A DNA stretch of 40,535 nt from NCBI GenBank assembly GCA_031281735.1, contig JAITEZ010000212.1:1-40535 (forward strand). The letters run 5' to 3'. The notes below the pieces were generated by a model that did no database searches, had not been told where the DNA came from, and worked only from the letters and a program-made list of their open reading frames with translations. A program made the position numbers and the translations under genes. Of the stretch, positions 17,148 to 40,535 are shown one piece after another; position 1 is the stretch's first letter, and each line of letters begins with the position of its first letter. This DNA is from Deltaproteobacteria bacterium. Lineage in GTDB: Bacteria > Desulfobacterota > Desulfarculia > Adiutricales > Adiutricaceae.

Positions 17148-18431
17148 TCAGCCGTCGTCGTCGCACATGAGGTTGAGGCGGTAGGCCTTGGCCCCGATGT
17201 CGCGCCTGTAATGCGATCCCTTGAAGCTGATGTCCCCGCAGGCGAGGTAGGCCTTCGACAGGGCCTCCTTGAGGTTCCTGCCCGTGGCGGTGACCCCCAG
17301 GACCCTGCCGCCGTTGGTGACGGGGAGGCTTTCGGGGGAACGGCCCACTCCGGCCTCGAAGACCACCGTGTCGGGGCGGGCGTTGGCCGCGTCGAGGCCC
17401 GTGATGGGGTCGCCCCGGCGATAGGGGCCGGGGTATCCCTCGGCGCTGAAGACAACGCAGGCGGCGGTCCCCGGCGAGATCCTGATCGTCCTGCCGGCCA
17501 GGTCCCCCGTCGCTGCGGCCATCAGGATCTCCGCGAGGTCGGACTCGATCAGGGGCATGAGCGCCTGCGTCTCGGGATCGCCGAACCGGGCGTTGAACTC
17601 AAGGAGCTTGGCCCCGGAGAGGGACACCATGAGGCCTGCGTAGAGGAGGCCGCAGAAGGGGGATCCCTCGACCGCGAGGCCGTTCACGGCGGGGATCATG
17701 ATGTCCCGCATCACGTGGTCCCGGAGGGCGGGCGTCATCATGGGGGCGGGGGCGTAGGCCCCCATGCCTCCCGTGTTGGGCCCCCGGTCGTCGTCGTAGA
17801 CGGCCTTGTGATCCTGGGCGGAGGGGAGGGGGAGGATCGTCTTGCCGTCCGTGATGCCGAAGAACGAGATCTCCTCCCCCGTCAGGAAGCTCTCGATGAT
17901 GACGCTCTTCCCCGCGCCGGTGGAGGCCAGCGAGGAGAGGGCGTTGAGGGCGGCGGAGAGCTTGCCGCAGATGACGACGCCCTTGCCCGCCGCGAGCCCG
18001 TCGGCCTTCAGTACGACCGGGAAGGAGGAGTGCCGCAGAAAGTCCTGGGCCTCCTCCACGTCGTAGAAGACGGCATAGCTGGCCGTGGGGAGGTTGTGGC
18101 GGATCATGAAGTCCTTGGCGAAGACCTTGGACCCCTCTATCCTCGCCGCGCTCTTGGAGGGGCCGAAGACCGGGAAGCCCTCGGCTCTCAGGATGTCGGC
18201 CAGGCCCAGCACCAGGGGGAGTTCCGGCCCTATGAGGACCAGATCCGGCCTGATCTCGGCGGCCAGGGCTTTCAGCGCCTCCAGGTCGTCGGCCTGCACG
18301 GGCCTCGTCTCCCCCAGGGCGGCCAGGGCGGGGCTCCCGGGCGCCGACACGATCCGGTTCTCAGGGTTCTTCGCGAGCTTCCAGGCCAGGGCGTGTTCCC
18401 TGCCGCCGGAGCCGATGAGAAGGATTTTCAT
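17148..18431 (-). CDS. purD: Phosphoribosylamine-glycine ligase (GARS)
   Basis: Second enzyme of de novo purine synthesis: joins 5-phosphoribosylamine and glycine with ATP to give GAR, in the cytosol. The 427-residue length is typical of bacterial PurD. N-terminal signature MKILLIGSGGREHALAWKL, then an ATP-grasp domain with FPVVLKADGLAAGKGVVI and the family motif DDDRGPNTGGMGAYAPAP. LEFNARFGDPETQALMPLI holds metal and ATP ligands, and the C-terminal domain includes GGRVLGVTATG. The ATG at 18431 places the nucleotide-binding loop right at the N-terminus, as usual. It stands alone with no purH or purL beside it. AT-richer sequence upstream (about 18620-18720) includes TAAAAT-like -10 candidates on the minus strand. 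Confidence 0.97.
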   Translation of the reverse strand: MKILLIGSGGREHALAWKLAKNPENRIVSAPGSPALAALGETRPVQADDLEALKALAAEIRPDLVLIGPELPLVLGLADILRAEGFPVFGPSKSAARIEGSKVFAKDFMIRHNLPTASYAVFYDVEEAQDFLRHSSFPVVLKADGLAAGKGVVICGKLSAALNALSSLASTGAGKSVIIESFLTGEEISFFGITDGKTILPLPSAQDHKAVYDDDRGPNTGGMGAYAPAPMMTPALRDHVMRDIMIPAVNGLAVEGSPFCGLLYAGLMVSLSGAKLLEFNARFGDPETQALMPLIESDLAEILMAAATGDLAGRTIRISPGTAACVVFSAEGYPGPYRRGDPITGLDAANARPDTVVFEAGVGRSPESLPVTNGGRVLGVTATGRNLKEALSKAYLACGDISFKGSHYRRDIGAKAYRLNLMCDDDG

Positions 18432-19673
18432 ACGCTGATGACCTGGAGTGTCCTTGGCGGACGCCTGGCACCGGGGGGAGTGGCGCCGGGTGCTAGGCGG
18501 GCCTCTTGCCTTAGCGGACAGGGGAAGGAAGGAGTCGCGGACGGTTTTGGGGAACGATACGGGCCGGAGGAAGGGAGGCTCCAGGAGGCGCCGCGCCAGC
18601 AGCTTACGGTATGCTCGTCATTAAGCTATATGGATTTTAGACCTTTTGCACGGTTTTTGAAAGGGGAGAGAGTATGCTGCTATTTCGTTAATTAGACGCG
18701 GTCGCAAGGTTTGAAAGGCGGCTGGGTGATGAAGTCAGTATCGGGCTAGGGATTGCATCAGTTCACGGCAGCAGGTGATTCGGAGTACCGGAGGGGAAGA
18801 GGGTAGACGCGAGGCAGTCTAAAGGGATACAGAATCCCTGTATATGCGATCTGTGATGACTATTTAATATTTTTTATTTTCCTTAAAATATAAACATGCT
18901 AAAAAAACTTGCATTGCCAGGATACGGCAGGATGAGCCCCCATGCGTCTCGATGAGCATCTTTCAGAATCAACCATCCACCGTGTCTGGGCGGACACCCT
19001 CCAGCGGCTTGCCCGGCAGGAAGGACTGGCTGTCCCGTCATGGAAAGTCTCGGTAGGTGAGAGCCAGAAACGCGAGCCTGCGGCCGGAGGCAGCGGGCCA
19101 GCGGCCGGAGTCAGCGAGCTTGAGGCCAGGCTGGCCGTCCCGGCCCCGGACCCGTCCAACCCGGGGATCCCCCATCCCAGGAGTTCCTCAGGAAGTGCCG
19201 GGCCGGGATCACGGGGGGGCAGGACAGCCGCCTGCGGCTCGGGCAGGGCGCCCAGCCGGGGCGCAGGGCCTTTCTGAGATCCCCTTTCAGCCAAGGGGAC
19301 TGCGAGACCGGGTACGTCAACAGCGGCCAGACGCGCCGGTGCCCCGGCCGCGGCGCCGGGCTGGCCCTGGATACAGGCGGGATGAACGCCCCGTGGCCCG
19401 GAAGGACGTCCATTGAGTTTCCCCCCGGGCGGCGAGGGGGGCCATCCAGGAGGCGCGGGGCTGCCGGTGTCCCTGCCGCGGCAGGATTCACATGTCCGGG
19501 AAGCCCCCAGGCGGGTTCTGGGTAGGGCTCCTGTCCGCCGTCCTGGCCGCGTGGCCGGTCACCCTCGGCGTGACCCGCAGCCAGGCGCCGGGACATCCCG
19601 TCGCCCTGCCCGGGCTACCGGCGCACCGGTCAGCCTCGGGTGCCCCGACATGATCCTGAAAGCAGGCGATGCC

Positions 19674-20165
19674 ATGAGAACCCTCCGGCAGGAGCGTCTC
19701 CGCGACCTGGCGCGCCGCACCCCCGTGCATGCCGGCGAGACCGGCCGCAGTTTCAGCGGCAGGCGCCCCTGCGCCAGGAGCCTCGGGACGGTGGGGACGC
19801 GCGTCTGCGTCACCGGGACGCGCTCCCTGGAGACCCTGCGCAAGGCGCCGGGCGGCGGCTGGGAAGGCTTCATGAGCCGCGGCTTCCGCACGGCGTGCCG
19901 CGGCTTCCGCACGGCGTGCCGCGGCTTCGCCAAGGGCAGCCCGGGCGTGACATTGCGGTTCCGCCTGGCGCAGTTCCGGAGGGATTCCCGGCGCCGCGCG
20001 GACATGCTGGCGGACGGGGCGGTCCGCAGGCACGGCGAGGCCGGGGTGAGGCCGGCCCGGGAGATCGTCCGCAGGTACGAACGGCTCCGTGAGCTCCCGG
20101 AGGGAGGGGACGGGGAGCCGGCGTCGCGGCTCCGGGCTAGGCCCGCCCGGCTCAGGGGGAGCTGA
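19674..20165 (+). pseudogene. Possible decayed gene of basic protein, function unknown
   Basis: From the ATG at 19674 the frame runs 163 codons to TGA. The product is Arg-rich with no recognised domain; its end (LADGAVRRHGEAGVRPAREIV) looks more protein-like than its start. It contains 2.5 copies of a 21-bp repeat. It could be a fragment of a phage gene or merely an open frame favoured by composition. Confidence 0.2.
19876..19928. repeat. 21-bp tandem repeat, 2.5 copies
   Basis: GCCGCGGCTTCCGCACGGCGT occurs at 19876-19896 and 19897-19917, and its first 11 bases again at 19918-19928. In the plus frame it encodes a repeated RGFRTAC heptapeptide. Confidence 0.9.
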
Positions 20166-21529
20166 CGGGGCACGCCCCGGATGCCCGGTGGCGATCGCCG
20201 CGAGGTCCAGGGAGTGGGGCCGGTACCGCTTCACGTTCCTTGCCAGCCCGGATATCTTCCCCGCGAACAGCTACGCCGGGATCGGGCCCTGGGGCGGCCC
20301 CGTCGCCTCCAGGGAGATAGCCGCGGGAAGCAGGGCGTAAGCGGGATCCGGCACCCAGAGACCTCCTGGTCCTTCCTGTGGACGCTCCTCCTCGGGGCCA
20401 TAGACGGGTTGAAGCGGCTCAGGGAGGCCCTGACGGCCGCAACCAGGGGGGAGGCCCCGCCGTCCCTCGTGAACACGGGACAGCCGGTCGCGGACGGATC
20501 CGCCAGGGCGGCGCGGCGCGTGAGGAGTGAAGGCAGGGAAGAAAGAGAGTCCGCCCTGGCGGCATGGGGGCTGGAAAGCCGATGGAAGGCGGAATGGCGT
20601 GGAGGGCGCCGGCCGGCAGGCCGGCCCGGGAAGGGCTGGCAGGCGGAGTCTACCCCCAGGGATCCAGCCCCGGCGGGACGGGCAGGGGGAGTGGTTCCTC
20701 TGCTCCCCTTCCCAAGGGTGGTGCGGTGGGGGGCCGGCCCGAAAGCCGCTCCCGCGAGGAAATATCGGATCGGGGGGGATGGCGCCCAGGATGCCCGTCC
20801 CTCCTGGCCGGGCCGGGACGGCCCCGGCCCGCGAGCCCGCCAGTAGAGACGGTTGCCGCCGGGTGGCGCCCCGTGATCCCGGCCCGGCAGGGAGGGGCGG
20901 GAACTCCGCGCCCCCTGTGCGGTGCCGCGGGCCCGGACGCGTCCCAGGGGCGGGGGGGGGAGGACGCGTCCGGAGACCGGCCCTGAGGCGGCTCCGGCAC
21001 TTCAGGGCGCGTTCCACGGGGAAGGCCGCGGCCCGCCCTTCACGAGGCCACAGGGCCGAGGGGATTCCGGGGCCCGACCCGACGGGTCTGATCGCCGAAC
21101 CGGGGCCAGCAGGGTCATGCCCGCCCCCGGACGGGGAAGTGCGCCTCGAGGGCTCCCCCGGCGCCGGGGCGGACGCTCTCGGCGGGACGGCGCCGGCGCG
21201 TCCCGCCCCGGCCCTGGACAGGCACGGTCTTCCGGCAAGGGACAGGCCCTGCCGGCCGCCGGGGGGAATCCCAGCCCCCTGGGAGGCCGCGGCATGGCCA
21301 GAGCCCGCGTCCCCGGGCCCAGGCAACGGGATCAGCGCCAGAGGCAGCCTTAATGCTAGGCGACGTGCCAGGCGTCTTGAGAATCGTTCTATTGCACATG
21401 GCCTCTGCCAGCGGCCTTGTTGCAATCTAGCGTGAACGGATACTACAAGGTAGAAGTAATACGAGTGTCATGGCTGTGGGGATTTCGGATCGCCTCAGTG
21501 GTGGGGTATTATAATTTTCATACTGGACC

Positions 21530-21840: not shown

Positions 21841-22568
21841 GACGATCAGGAGCGAGGAATGCGCCGCCCGTGGCCTCCGCCGAGGGGGCGCGGGACCGCG
21901 TGGGGCATCGTCAGGCGATCGGGGATTGCAAGCGCCGGGGGAGAGGCAGTCAACAACTAAAGGTTACGACGGGTAAGAGCCTCGCTGACGAGGCCCCAAG
22001 GATGGGGGGGATTGATGGCCTGTCTCATTTGTAGAAAGCCGTCCGGCGGGGTTCCGCCGCTGCCCGATGCGGTTCGGCCGCCCTCCATAGCCCCGCGTTT
22101 AGCGACTCGGTCGCCGCAGGTGCCGCCGGGCCGCTGTCGCGCGCGGGCTGGCTGGAGGCCCGTGGCGGGGGCGGGGGGATGGATAGCTGGATACCGGCCG
22201 GGATGCCCGAGTCGGCGAGGCTCATGCCGGATCATGCCTCCGGGCACACCGAGGCCCCCATGACCGCTGGCGCGGACAAGGCCTGCAGGCGGATCATGGG
22301 CAAGGGTGCAGGATGTCCGTTCCGGCTCCGGCGTCAGCATGCCCAGGGTTTATCTGGCCGGGAGGTTCCTGCGGGGAGACGAATCCCGAGCATAACCCCG
22401 GCCTCATCCTGGCCGTTCATGGGCAAAGCCCCGGCGGCCACTGCCACCGGAGACGTCCCCGAGCCGCACCTGGAACTGGTGCGCACCGGGAATTTCTCCA
22501 GCTCGAATAACGATAGAGACGCGAGGCGCAGGCGGGAAAGCACGCGCCGGTCGCGAGAGGATTTGAAG

Positions 22569-23528
22569 ATGACGTTTGAGATTAAGCACAGGGCAGGCAT
22601 GGGCGGTCTTTTCGACACCCCGCTTGCCCGGCCCGACTATCACGACAAGATCATGGCTATGGTCTATGAGAGGGACTTCCTCCGCTATATCACCTACTCC
22701 GGGATCTCGGAGCGCGTCACGCACTGCGGCCAGAATGTGCATCTCATCAAGGGCCCGGAGATCGGAGATTGGTGTACCTGCCAGTTTAACCTGCAGAATG
22801 AGAACAGCTCGGCCACCGCCACCGCTGCCTCGCTCCCGATCTGCCACGCCGCCTACCAGTCGCTCAAGTATGATGCGCTCGCCACCCGCTACTTGTGCGA
22901 GCACTGGGAGTTGGTTGAGAGGAAGTTCCTGGAGTACCGCTACGAGGAATACTTGGACTTCCAGCATGAGTGGGTCTTCACCTCCATGGTGGCTCAGGTG
23001 TCCCAGCACAACCAGGGTGCCCGTGCGGGAAGGCACCGCAACCTGGACCTCGGCTCCGTGGGGGCCCCGCGCCGCATCACCCGCTCCACCCTGCCGGTGG
23101 AGCTCTCGAAGATGAGGCAGGTGCTCGAGGATAACCGCCCCTCCGTGCCGGGCGAATTTTTCTTGCTCGTGCCCTCGATGATATACACCGTGCTGATGAA
23201 GTCGTACTTCGGCAACACGGCCTGGGGCGGCGGCTCGGGCATCAGCAGAGCCGTGGACGGCGCGTGGCCGAGGCAGCTCTGGGGCTTCAACGTCATCGAG
23301 ACCAACCGCCTGCTCAGTACCCAGGATTCCGGGCAGGTCTGCTACTACGTCCTGGCGGGGCACCGGGACGCCTTCGCCTACGCCTCCGGCATCGTCCTGT
23401 CCCGCTTGGTGCCGGACACTCACTCCTTCTCCACCTTGTTCCAGATGCTAGCCGCCTGGGGCGGGGTCATGCTCCACCCGGATCACCTCGTGATGGGCTA
23501 CTGGCACTTTGACCCGATCTCGCGGTAA
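22569..23528 (+). CDS. Phage major capsid protein, HK97-fold (P22/T7-like)
   Basis: Structural protein that would form the icosahedral head shell. From the ATG at 22569 (GAGAGG 9 bases upstream) it has 319 residues, a normal length for this class. Family-type features sit in the right order: an N-terminal strand region; a spine-helix region around HAAYQSLKYDALATRYLCEH; the motif MRQVLEDNRPSVPGEFFLLV, matching the usual 'L-D-x-N-x-V-P-x-x-G-R-x-x-V-x-P'; then WGFNVIETNRLL; and the C-terminal AGHRDAFAYASGI typical of P22/T7-like shells. The frame is open for 130 further codons upstream, but that part is not convincing protein. No portal, terminase, protease or tail gene was recognised nearby. 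Codon use is less GC-extreme than in the neighbouring housekeeping genes. Confidence 0.85.
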   Translation: MTFEIKHRAGMGGLFDTPLARPDYHDKIMAMVYERDFLRYITYSGISERVTHCGQNVHLIKGPEIGDWCTCQFNLQNENSSATATAASLPICHAAYQSLKYDALATRYLCEHWELVERKFLEYRYEEYLDFQHEWVFTSMVAQVSQHNQGARAGRHRNLDLGSVGAPRRITRSTLPVELSKMRQVLEDNRPSVPGEFFLLVPSMIYTVLMKSYFGNTAWGGGSGISRAVDGAWPRQLWGFNVIETNRLLSTQDSGQVCYYVLAGHRDAFAYASGIVLSRLVPDTHSFSTLFQMLAAWGGVMLHPDHLVMGYWHFDPISR

Positions 23529-23541
23529 GGAGGCAGGAGAC

Positions 23542-23655
23542 ATGGCAGACGCCATTATCTACAAAGGCGTCACGGCACCCGTCAGCTACGGCTCCCGGAC
23601 GAACAGGGCGCCCGTCCTGTGCGGGCCCCCCCGGGGCGCCGGGCCTAGCCCTTAA
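23542..23655 (+). CDS. Truncated small gene translationally coupled to the capsid gene
   Basis: AAGGAGG at 23527-23533 overlaps the capsid stop and sits 8 bases before an ATG, the best ribosome-binding site in this tract. The 37-residue product starts MADAIIYKGVTAPVSYGSRT and then becomes Pro/Gly-rich before TAA. It looks like the first 20-odd residues of a former phage structural gene whose remainder has been lost or replaced. Confidence 0.45.
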   Translation: MADAIIYKGVTAPVSYGSRTNRAPVLCGPPRGAGPSP

Positions 23656-24280
23656 GCCCTCCCTTCGACGCCCGTCGCGGGGCCGGGACGGGGGGCAAGT
23701 CCACCTTGGGGCCGGGTACCAGCCCGTGCCCGGCCTCCTGGGCTGGGCGGCGCATCAGACTGCGCACGACCAACCCGGCCGTGGGGTCTTGATACGGAAG
23801 AGCATCGTCCCCTGCTTGTATATGGGCGGTAAGCCTCGGCGTGACCATGCGGGACGCGGGCACGGTCGGTCTGTGCCGCTGCGACCGCCGCGCGGCGGCG
23901 CGGCGGGGATTCGGAGTATCCTGCGTCCCCTCGGCTACGCCGAGCCTCGAGACGCGAGCCAGGGGTGACCTGTGCCCCTGGCCGGCGTCCTCGTCCGCCG
24001 CGGTCTGGCTGACGTGGGCCGGGGGCTCCGTGACGGGCCAGGTCTAGGGTACGGTCGGCCCCGCGAACGGGGCGGTCGCCGCCGCGGCCAACTTGGAGGC
24101 CTCCTGCGATGTCATAACGGTCTGCGTTAAGACAGCGCCCGTGAAACCGGCTAGCTGCCGGACGAGGCCCGCGCGAGTCTCCTGGGCGGTACGCCCCTGC
24201 TTGGTAAAAAACGGGATGACTCCCGCCGCCCCCGCCGGCTCCGGCGCGATTAAGCGGGGCAGCCGGCTCGAGCGCGGACG
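23645..24280 (-). pseudogene. Possible decayed minus-strand gene with in-frame amber stop
   Basis: On the minus strand one frame is open from 24280 to 23645 (212 codons), except for a single TAG at 24044-24046. The first part is protein-like: LPRLIAPEPAGAAGVIPFFT followed by an amphipathic stretch with LTQTVMTSQEASKLAAAAT. The latter part includes RMVTPRLTAHIQAGDDALPY. No family is recognised. Orientation is opposite to the capsid gene. A non-coding explanation is possible. Confidence 0.25.
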
Positions 24281-25263
24281 TCAAGGGACTTCTGGCGGGG
24301 GCCGTGGCGGAACACGGCGCGGTTAGGCCCGGGAACCCGCAGGTGACGGAAGCGGCTGTCCCGCGCCCGTGTTGGATACCGTGGGGCAGGCTGCATGCCC
24401 GGGGGAGGGTGAACGCCAAGAAGAGGCTAGGAGCGTTCAGAGGAGCCGCCGGCGGGGAGTGCGGCGTCCTTGCGCTGGTCAGTCTTTCGGGCGGGCCGTG
24501 TCCCTGGTGTGGCATGGACGGGATCCAGAGGTGAGCGCTCAAGAGGCCTTGGCCTGCCGCCTTCTGTATCCCGGGGTGATGGAGACCAAGGGCGGGATTC
24601 GGCGCCTTCCGGCTGTCTGGCGGCGACGTCAGGGAGATCCGTCATGATCGTCCCCCGTCCCGGCCTGGTTCGGTCGCGTCTCCTGCCCCCGGAGTCGGAA
24701 ATGGCGGCGCGAACGCCTGTTATCTCATTATCCCTCTATCTCTTCCCTGCCTTTCATTCCGTCTCATCATATGTGAGGCCCGTCACAAGTCACTATGCTC
24801 ATGGATATTGATTGTATGGTTAATGTTAATCAATATATTTTATTTTTATTTGTAAAAGATAAATATTTATATATTTTATAAAATATAATAAATATTATTT
24901 TTTAAAAAAAATAAATATATAAAGAAATATAATATATATATTAAATATAAATTATTATAATTAAAATATAATAACTTTATTATTTGATGGTATCCCTCAG
25001 GAAACGTTTGAAAACCGCCTTATGAGATACACAAGATTTGTTTGGAGAATCATGATAAAGACTCCTTGTGCTTCCAGGATGAGAAATGCGGGGCGGCCTT
25101 ACCAAATCAGGGTCGGCGCGTGATCAACCCGGTCATGGCATCAGTCACCCCCCCGCACCCTCTCTCGGCCCGGGGCGGGGCCGCCGTGGCCACCTTCCCA
25201 GGGCTGGGGCCTGTCTTGCGGACATCGACCTGAGGCCTCAGGGCATTCCCCTTCCTCGCCTTG
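23656..25263. other. Degraded tract, right part, with AT island
   Basis: Apart from the minus-strand remnant above, this stretch holds no recognisable gene. Composition changes sharply from GC-rich to almost pure A/T at 24820-24986 and back by 25080. A 14-bp palindrome CCTGAGGCCTCAGG lies at 25229-25242. No clear attachment-site repeat pairing with the left AT-rich patch was found by eye. Confidence 0.45.
24820..24986. repeat. AT island of about 165 bases
   Basis: Over 24832-24985 I count only about four G or C bases, in a window that is otherwise very GC-rich. It contains many TAAATA/TATATA-like words and A-tracts. It marks the right side of the degraded tract next to the alaS 3' end. Confidence 0.85.
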
Positions 25264-25295: not shown

Positions 25296-28019
<2,724 letters not shown>

Positions 28020-36141: not shown

Positions 36142-37086
36142 TCAGCGGCTTGGCCGCAGGAGGGCTGTGCCTGGACGGGAGCAACGCGCGGCGCCGATCC
36201 TGATCACGCTACTGTCCCCGACCTCCAGGCGCTCAGCCGCCAGGGCCACGTATTCGGGATTGAGCTCGATTCCCACGTACAGCCTGTTTTCGTCACGGCA
36301 CACGACTCCCACCGTCCCCGACCCGAAGAACGGATCGAGGACGTAATCCCCCGGCTCCGTCGACGCTAGTATGCAGGGACGGACCAGCTCCTGCGGGAAG
36401 ACCGCGAAGTGGGCGCCGGCGAACGGCCTGGTGTTCACCTGCCATACCGAACGGAGGTTGCGCATGCCACCCCCGTCCGCCGGCTCGCGGGCGGCCCGCC
36501 AGTCGTAGTAGTACTTTTCCGATTTTGTGAACATGAAGAGGAACTCGTGCGACCGGGCGGGGCGGTCCTTGACGCTCTCGGGCATGGCGTTGGGCTTGTA
36601 CCACACGACATCGCTGCGGAGGTACCAGCCGTCGGCCTGCAGGGCGAAAGCCAGCCGCCACGGGATGCCGAGCAGATCCTTCGGCTTGAAGCCCTCGGGC
36701 GTGTCTGGGCGGACGCCCATCGCCCGCGCCGGGTTCTTCCTGTCAGGGGCGCGGTAGCCGCGGTTGCCGCTGGTGTAGCCGTCCCCTATGTTCAGCCAGA
36801 GGGTGCCGTCGCCGGCCAGCACGCGCCGCGCCTCGGCGAAGACGGAGACGAGCCGGCGCAGGAACCGCGTCATCGTGGATTCTAGGCCGATCTGCTCCGC
36901 GATGCCGTAGTCTCGCAATCCCCAATAGGGCGGGGATGTCACCACGCACCGCGCGAACCCGGCCGGCAGGCGGCGGAGCACGGTCAGGGCGTCGCCCTCG
37001 AACAGGGTCGAGCCGTGCAGGGCGGGCGTTTCCGGGCGGCGCGCCCGCTCCGTGCCGTCCGGCGCGGGGATGTCGGCTTTAGGCAT
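36142..37086 (-). CDS. Site-specific DNA methyltransferase (N4-cytosine/N6-adenine, SPPY type), apparently solitary
   Basis: Transfers methyl from SAM to an exocyclic amino group in DNA. 314 residues, with catalytic motif TSPPYWGLRDYG (S51-Y54) ahead of the SAM-binding motif DPFFGSGTVG (251-260), the beta-class order. SPPY is usual for m4C enzymes but also found in m6A enzymes. Other conserved parts: GDGTLWLNIGDGY, DVVWYKPNAMPESVKDRP, RSHEFLFMFTKS. The ATG at 37086 lies upstream of a typical N-terminal EGDALTVLRRLP. No restriction enzyme is recognised on either side, so it may be an orphan or phage-derived enzyme. The recognition sequence cannot be deduced. Confidence 0.9.
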   Translation of the reverse strand: MPKADIPAPDGTERARRPETPALHGSTLFEGDALTVLRRLPAGFARCVVTSPPYWGLRDYGIAEQIGLESTMTRFLRRLVSVFAEARRVLAGDGTLWLNIGDGYTSGNRGYRAPDRKNPARAMGVRPDTPEGFKPKDLLGIPWRLAFALQADGWYLRSDVVWYKPNAMPESVKDRPARSHEFLFMFTKSEKYYYDWRAAREPADGGGMRNLRSVWQVNTRPFAGAHFAVFPQELVRPCILASTEPGDYVLDPFFGSGTVGVVCRDENRLYVGIELNPEYVALAAERLEVGDSSVIRIGAARCSRPGTALLRPSR

Positions 37087-39262: not shown

Positions 39263-40535
39263 TAAGGATCCTCGCGGGGGGGTGCAGGCCCCCTTTCGGG
39301 AAGCGGGAGCGCGTCCGGGACGCGGCCCCGGGGATGCCGGAAGCCCCCCGCCGTCCCGGGGCCGGGCGTCGCGGGGGCTGGCTGCGGCGCGGGGCCGGGC
39401 GGGGTGGCGGGACTGGGGGGAGGGGAGCCCGGCGCGCGCGTCCGGGAAGCGGACGGCTGCGGGGGGAGGCGCGGCGGGGGGCTTGATCCCCGGGCCGGGG
39501 CCGGAAGGGGCCGCGGGAGAAGAGCGGGGCCGGCGGACGCGGGAGAGGCGCACGGTCGGCAGGAGGGCGCTTGCCGGCCTCCGGGGCTCCGGAGGCAGCG
39601 GCGTGTCCGGGGGGCCTGCCGCTCCGGACGGGGAGGGACGCAAGGGGTTGAAGAAAGCGCAACAGGCAGCCACAGTTAGGCGCATGATACTACATGCTTG
39701 ACATAGTAACAATTCCTTTCTGGGGCACCGAGGGAGCCGGGCGGCCGATTTCCCCGCCCCCCTCCGCTGCCGGATCATACTGCGCGCCGGGTGGGTCGTT
39801 CCGGACCCTTGAGGATCATCTCAGTCTCGGTTCAGGTCAGGCGGCCGGGCAGGCGAGGGTGAGGGAGACGGCTGGGATGAGGCTGCAGGCTGGGAAGTGC
39901 ATCATGGCCAGATTCAGCATGGTGAAGCTGGAGGCCAGTCCAGGGACAATGGCAGGGAAGATGAGAGTGAGGCTGATGTACGGGTCAAGATACAAAGGAT
40001 GCTCAGCTCAGAGAGGGGTTGACGGTCGGGCAAGGGAATGGTTGCCGGGCAGGTCGGGGCGTGGGCGGCGGCCGGGCCAGGGGAAGGCGGGCGGTCATGC
40101 CGGGGAGAGCGGTATGGCGGCTCAGGGTGAGGCCGGCGGCCAGGGCTGGGGAAGGAAGCGGGCCGGGCAGGGTGAGGACGACGGCAGTGTCTGGGGGGAG
40201 CGATCCGGCAGGCAGGAGTGAGTTCCATGGACGGGCCTGGGAGAAGCAATAGGGCTGGGAAGGTTGACGGCCTCCCCGCCCTGAGGGACGGGGATTCCCT
40301 CCGGATACAGGGCCCTGCGCCCCAGCCCCCGGAGCCGTTCTCCGGAGGCTCCTGCGGGGGGCCCCGGGCGCCCCTCCCCCGCAGGCGTTGGCGGCCCGCC
40401 CGGCCGCCAGGACGCCGGGCGCCGGGCGCCGGCCGGACCGGCGTGGCCCCCCCGCAACCGAGCCCCGGACGCCGGGGACCGGCCTGGGAGGGCCGGTTCC
40501 CGGCGTCCGCGCGCGGGGCACGTCCGGCCGGCATG
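39263..40535. other. recA leader and gene-free right end of the window
   Basis: 39263-39683 is a GC-rich leader of recA. From 39713 to the end no convincing gene is seen. On the minus strand one short frame ending at 39837 reads like a hydrophobic protein tail (PYISLTLIFPAIVPGLASSF and onward), and another frame ending at 40003 is Pro/Leu-rich. They could be decayed pieces of a membrane protein, but purine-biased simple sequence (GGGTGAGG-like words on the plus strand) explains them equally well. Confidence 0.4.
39684..39712 (-). promoter_or_regulatory. Candidate recA promoter with internal dyad
   Basis: On the minus strand TTGTTA (39712-39707), 17-base spacer, TATCAT (39689-39684). The dyad TACTA-N11-TAGTA at 39688-39708 spans the spacer and could be a LexA-type operator, though it does not match the E. 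coli or Bacillus SOS box. The start would lie about 415 bases before the recA ATG. Confidence 0.5.

Follow-up and report, generated by a model that had tools for sequence, protein, structure and literature searches.

Cryptic prophages with retained genes, as described in PMC8987985, are immobilised elements that are kept under purifying selection after co-option. The locus analysed in this study resembles them in being a defective prophage in which one gene has outlasted the rest, but differs from them in that the retained gene is structural, stands without partners, and has neither demonstrated vertical conservation nor a known function. A second described system is that of the encapsulins, which, according to PMC8346489, share the HK97 fold, self-assemble and load dedicated cargo. 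The locus is like them in having an HK97-type capsid protein outside a complete phage, whereas its sequence and its best fold matches are those of phage capsids and a cargo gene is absent. The closest relatives are temperate, podovirus-type phages of about 65 kb, whose capsids are 39-53% identical to the one studied here over the full length and whose gene order (scaffold-like gene, capsid, gene2) is identical. In comparison with these phages, the locus keeps 1.9 kb only, with a broken scaffold-like gene and a broken gene2, and lacks terminase, portal, tail and integrase. The window, that is, the whole stretch of DNA analysed, is a complete contig (JAITEZ010000212.1, C337; 40,535 nt) of a genome of 418 contigs and 3.96 Mb with an estimated completeness of 86%. 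The genome belongs to the Adiutricaceae, a family described from termite guts (PMC9137090), and its host is presumed to be a termite-gut bacterium.

The capsid gene and its source phages

The major capsid protein gene occupies 22569-23528 on the forward strand, running from ATG to TAA without internal stops and encoding 319 aa of the HK97-fold podovirus type. A Shine-Dalgarno-like GAGAGGA, read from the sequence, lies at 22555-22561 (+), 7 nt 5' of the ATG; no convincing promoter and no partner gene were identified for the capsid gene. The protein matches PHROG 267 'major head protein' (E=1.2e-9), a Pfam search of it gave no match, and the sequences closest to it are all phage capsids, the best homologue from an intact phage being that of G002, a genome of the same genus (52-53% identity over the length, E=2.7e-107). 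Structure prediction from a shallow alignment reached a mean pLDDT of 57.8, which is sufficient for the fold class only, and in this low-confidence model the elements follow one another as in an HK97-type capsid. Phage capsids rank first when the model is compared with a viral structure library (best E=1.8e-13), and the top matches in the PDB include the T7-like phages HRP29, P-SCSP1u and Kp7 (best E=6e-3), with encapsulins among the low-ranking fold matches (E 0.3-0.9). The original prediction of a real phage capsid gene with a normal length and a good start is thus borne out, and the profile and structure comparisons that it had proposed point to a phage major head protein and do not favour an encapsulin.

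Intact phages of the source family are present in three related genomes, two of the same genus (G002 and G005) and one of the same family (G023), and in one of these the phage is integrated. The integrated prophage of G023 (JAISRZ010000085.1, contig C153; loci L098-L101, L008 and L009) is roughly 66 kb long, carries terminase, portal, scaffold-like gene, capsid, gene2, internal virion protein and integrase, and is flanked by host-type genes (Sel1-repeat-like and transporter-like). Its capsid is 45% identical to that of the window, and its order of scaffold-like gene, capsid and gene2 is the same as in the other intact phages, including the contigs of G002 (JAIRZX010000631.1) and G005. More distant full-length relatives were found in G016 and G013. 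Full-length relatives also occur on IMG/VR contigs, three of which are about 65 kb long (65.3-65.4 kb), and on contigs of Pelistega, of Paraburkholderia and of a Methanocorpusculum bin. The INPHARED phage collection yielded no match to the window capsid.

The interval between purD and alaS

The capsid gene is flanked by the host genes purD on the left (17148-18431, -; 79% identical in G001) and alaS on the right (25296-28019, -; 80-81% identical in G001), both gene calls with products recognised from sequence. Between them, a codon-usage gene caller accepted the capsid as the sole credible gene, aside from two weak short calls in a dispersed repeat, leaving 4.1 kb of non-coding DNA to the left and 1.77 kb to the right. 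Broken parts of the same phage adjoin the capsid on both sides, on the same strand and in the same order as in the phage family. The scaffold-like gene relic at 22155-22548 (+) corresponds to the C-terminal ~128 codons of its homologue and contains at least three frameshifts; its frameshift-aware alignment scores are 81 against the G002 protein (shuffled maximum 49) and 100 against the G005 protein (shuffled maximum 43). The relic of gene2, the gene after the capsid in the phage family, lies at 23542-24032 (+) and contains at least nine frameshifts over 171 codons, with its start and first ~30 codons in frame and its last ~60 codons missing (score 182, shuffled maximum 49). In addition, blastn against the G002 phage (L007) was colinear over window positions 22469-23815 at 67% identity. 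No further phage relic scored above shuffled sequences in the window outside 22155-24032, and phage-protein matches elsewhere in the window were dismissed as GC-rich and low in complexity.

Since the capsid and the broken scaffold-like gene and gene2 stand in phage order, 22155-24032 is what remains of the head module of a temperate podovirus-type phage, ~1.9 kb long and truncated within a gene at both ends. Because the broken neighbours are colinear with the same phage, the proposal that the whole piece was a recent insertion is unsupported, and a later replacement of the capsid alone is possible. No terminase, portal, protease or cargo gene was recognised in the window, in agreement with the original prediction, and the terminase, portal and internal virion protein of the phage family are absent from the rest of this 86%-complete genome as well. 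No integrase was found in the window and no excision gene was recognised near the capsid, so that of the genes taken to indicate a functional prophage (terminase, portal, internal virion protein and integrase) the element has none.

The gene had been described as solitary and as lying in a tract decayed on both sides. It is indeed the only intact gene between purD and alaS, and the DNA on either side is non-coding; however, phage relics adjoin it directly, and most of the left tract is not phage DNA but a decayed dispersed repeat (18758-21450). Copies of this repeat (2.5-2.7 kb) were found at 16 fetched places in the source genome, G000 (L061-L076), at 60-84% identity, with a common right end (..ACAATcgagCGTGAACGG) and a variable left end, whereas five other genomes of the same genus gave no comparable long match. 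Substitutions between the copies show no three-base periodicity and indels are mostly single-base, indicating that the copies are dead or non-coding, and the indels amount to 0.11-0.14 per substitution. No convincing coding frame was found in the consensus of the copies. A derivation from IS66 was rejected, as the repeat had no Pfam match and did not convincingly match the DNA of the genome's IS66 relics. The repeat looks like the product of a burst of a dead, end-truncated mobile element.

Decayed IS66-type transposase genes occur in the same genome at L096 and L097, and a second repeat at window positions 40263-40530 recurs in other contigs (L061 5456-5752 and L073 2349-2528) with 74-79% identity. 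An AT-rich intergenic stretch at 24830-24985 has related AT-rich stretches elsewhere in the genome. The coding density of the window is about 64%, and the source genome is full of dead DNA. Near recA, the window also encodes a DNA methyltransferase-like gene (36142-37086, -) with a poor host codon score, which is possibly a recent acquisition.

Capsid preservation in the window and in related genomes

Compared with the G002 phage, the capsid gene has no frameshift in 957 nt, whereas gene2 has nine frameshifts and six further indels in ~490 nt, several single-base gaps in its first 273 nt being visible by plain blastn. When amino-acid changes were polarised by G023, the window and G002 sides had 39 and 32 changes in the capsid, without a significant excess on the window side, against 31 and 13 in gene2 (chi2 7.4). 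GC at codon position 2 shifts from 0.411 in G002 to 0.433 in the window for the capsid and from 0.457 to 0.669 for gene2; codon-position GC structure is retained in the capsid and lost in gene2. The window capsid has lost 7 of 43 phage-invariant residues, which leave-one-out tests place within the range for G002 and G023, and it is evolving at a live-phage rate. A codon branch model gave an omega of 0.50 for the window capsid branch, with omega = 1 not rejected and a fit made unreliable by saturated synonymous sites; the corresponding dN/dS fit for gene2 hit its bounds and was void.

Capsid matches were present in 5 of 37 genomes, as intact phages in G002 and G023 and as relics in G000, G016 and G013 (two places). 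Terminase was found in the three genomes with an intact phage and as one broken relic in G016, portal in three genomes and internal virion protein in two, giving a relic tally in the host family of four for the capsid, one for terminase and none for portal or internal virion protein. Capsid relics are therefore over-represented relative to other phage genes, in small numbers that include the pre-selected window case. The idea of conserved capsid retention across the family was dropped on account of that count and pre-selection and the erosion of the G016 and G013 copies. The relics of G016 (L010) and G013 (L011 and L012) belong to the same family and are isolated in their genomes, as is the window capsid, but they lie at different loci and evolve about four times faster than a live copy. 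Their frames are open while changing ~3.5-4x faster than the G023 copy (polarised changes 75 versus 22 and 72 versus 19), and they have lost 16-17 of the 43 phage-invariant residues. Judged by these rates and losses, G016 and G013 seem to hold dying genes whose frames are still open, whereas the window copy resembles a live one. In G016 (L010 8902-10641), the isolated capsid gene is open but fast-eroding, gene2 is retained and also open, and the scaffold gene is broken; in G013, the isolated frame at L011 1077-1988 is open but eroding fast, and L012 holds half a capsid only.

Placement was compared in the same set. Among five other genomes of the same genus, a capsid match occurred only in G002, within its phage. 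The locus is spanned by a contig in only one relative, G001, where purD and alaS keep their order and no gene of this phage, nor a complete prophage, was found in the 7.2 kb between them. The conserved solitary placement that would have favoured a host role is therefore not supported. As for the expectation that relatives might carry a full prophage here, complete prophages do exist, but in the one case that can be checked, G023, the prophage sits at another locus.

Explanations for the intact capsid gene

One explanation is chance survival: the prophage decays step by step in the usual way, and the capsid is by accident the frame that breaks last. The abundance of dead DNA in this genome, the open yet eroding capsid relics of G016 and G013, and the choice of the case on account of its intact frame are all in keeping with it. 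However, neutral decay calibrated at ~0.13 indels per substitution (from the dead repeats) and at the ~0.2 additional substitutions per site of gene2 gives a joint probability of no stop and no indel in the capsid of ~3e-13 at the neutral time of gene2 and 5e-4 at one quarter of it, values whose exact size depends on the alignment of the broken gene2. At the 5% level, the intact frame allows the capsid a neutral time of at most ~0.02 substitutions per site. Together with the lack of a significant excess of amino-acid change, this makes chance survival rather improbable, and an intact frame under decay calibrated on the neighbours is very unlikely. The contrast noted in the original prediction stands and preservation beyond chance is supported, and the contrast of the capsid with its wrecked direct neighbours needs selection or replacement. 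In the replacement scenario, recombination with an infecting relative put a fresh copy over about 22550-23630 of a relic that was dead by then, so that the gene would owe its intact frame to its youth and not to any use. The genus has live relatives in circulation, the capsid resembles a live-phage copy, third positions have diverged less in the capsid (0.392) than in gene2 (0.519), and the well-kept patch extends ~100 nt beyond the capsid stop, taking in ~30 codons at the start of gene2 and stopping at its first frameshift, an overrun that fits a recombination tract as well as chance. On the other hand, fourfold-site divergence from G002 is the same in the capsid (0.459, n=85) and in gene2 (0.479, n=48), giving no sign of a later arrival of the capsid, although this is weak evidence because these sites are near saturation at this GC. 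Moreover, no phage nearer than 53% identity was found, and the recombination arms would be only ~67% identical. Such a replacement is doubtful on balance, while being a more serious contender than chance survival.

The functions envisaged by the original prediction, namely a domesticated compartment, a satellite particle and a defence trigger, are less probable. Phage origin and the setting of a dying prophage held up, whereas the compartment and satellite proposals found no positive evidence. An encapsulin-like compartment made from a co-opted capsid would be consistent with an HK97-type capsid lacking packaging genes and with the low-ranking encapsulin matches, but podovirus capsids are the best fold matches, the nearest sequences are all phage capsids, no cargo gene adjoins the capsid from purD to alaS, and the placement is not conserved; encapsulin identity was rejected on the missing cargo gene and the phage-type relatives, and the compartment reading is highly improbable. 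Slightly less probable still is a capsid that serves a satellite or gene-transfer particle, with the remaining genes of the particle located elsewhere. Nothing specific speaks for it beyond the 86% completeness of the MAG, which could hide other parts, while terminase, portal and internal virion protein of the family were not found elsewhere in the genome, no integrase or excision gene was recognised nearby, and the element has no packaging or mobility gene. A role as an immunity decoy, or as the trigger of a defence protein that senses capsids, would draw on the same evidence for selection as the retention of the gene, but no defence gene was recognised among the gene calls of the window and a constant trigger would be toxic, leaving this very improbable, though less so than a compartment.

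Retention of the capsid under selection after its neighbours broke is the best reading, held with modest confidence. The preference over replacement is only moderate because of the saturated fourfold sites, the overrun of the patch and a branch model that does not reject omega = 1, and its evidence base is one genome and one locus, with no relative carrying a conserved solitary capsid. Also counting against co-option are the missing partner gene, the lack of phage genes in the purD-alaS gap of G001, and the erosion of the capsid relics in G016 and G013. The fuller account, in which a head-module relic was left in the purD-alaS gap and its capsid was kept for interference, is offered tentatively and as somewhat short of an even bet. 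Most of the prophage would have been lost, leaving the ~1.9 kb piece, after which small insertions and deletions would have broken the scaffold-like gene and gene2, while loss of the capsid would have been selected against during most of the time since. If the gene is expressed, its most plausible use without scaffold, portal and terminase may be interference with an infecting relative of the same phage family, whose members occur in the same genus as the host; free capsid subunits might co-assemble with the relative or titrate its scaffold. Capsid-derived restriction factors are known from animal endogenous viruses, and the lone phage capsid could, by analogy, act in a comparable way. That such a lone capsid poisons the head assembly of circulating related phages, so that the capsid survives preferentially among the relics of the host family, is a broader proposition and an improbable one.

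Overall, the locus is a prophage relic of a known kind, formed mostly by ordinary prophage decay, and the contrast between the capsid and its neighbours suggests that the shell gene was protected or replaced after those neighbours had died. The broken flanking genes provide an internal neutral clock, so that the genomes of a few strains would suffice to test the question. The locus would be one more prophage relic if its capsid frame simply breaks later than the others; if the host has instead kept the gene for its own use, it would be an example, rare in bacteria, of a phage shell gene that has become a host gene by itself.
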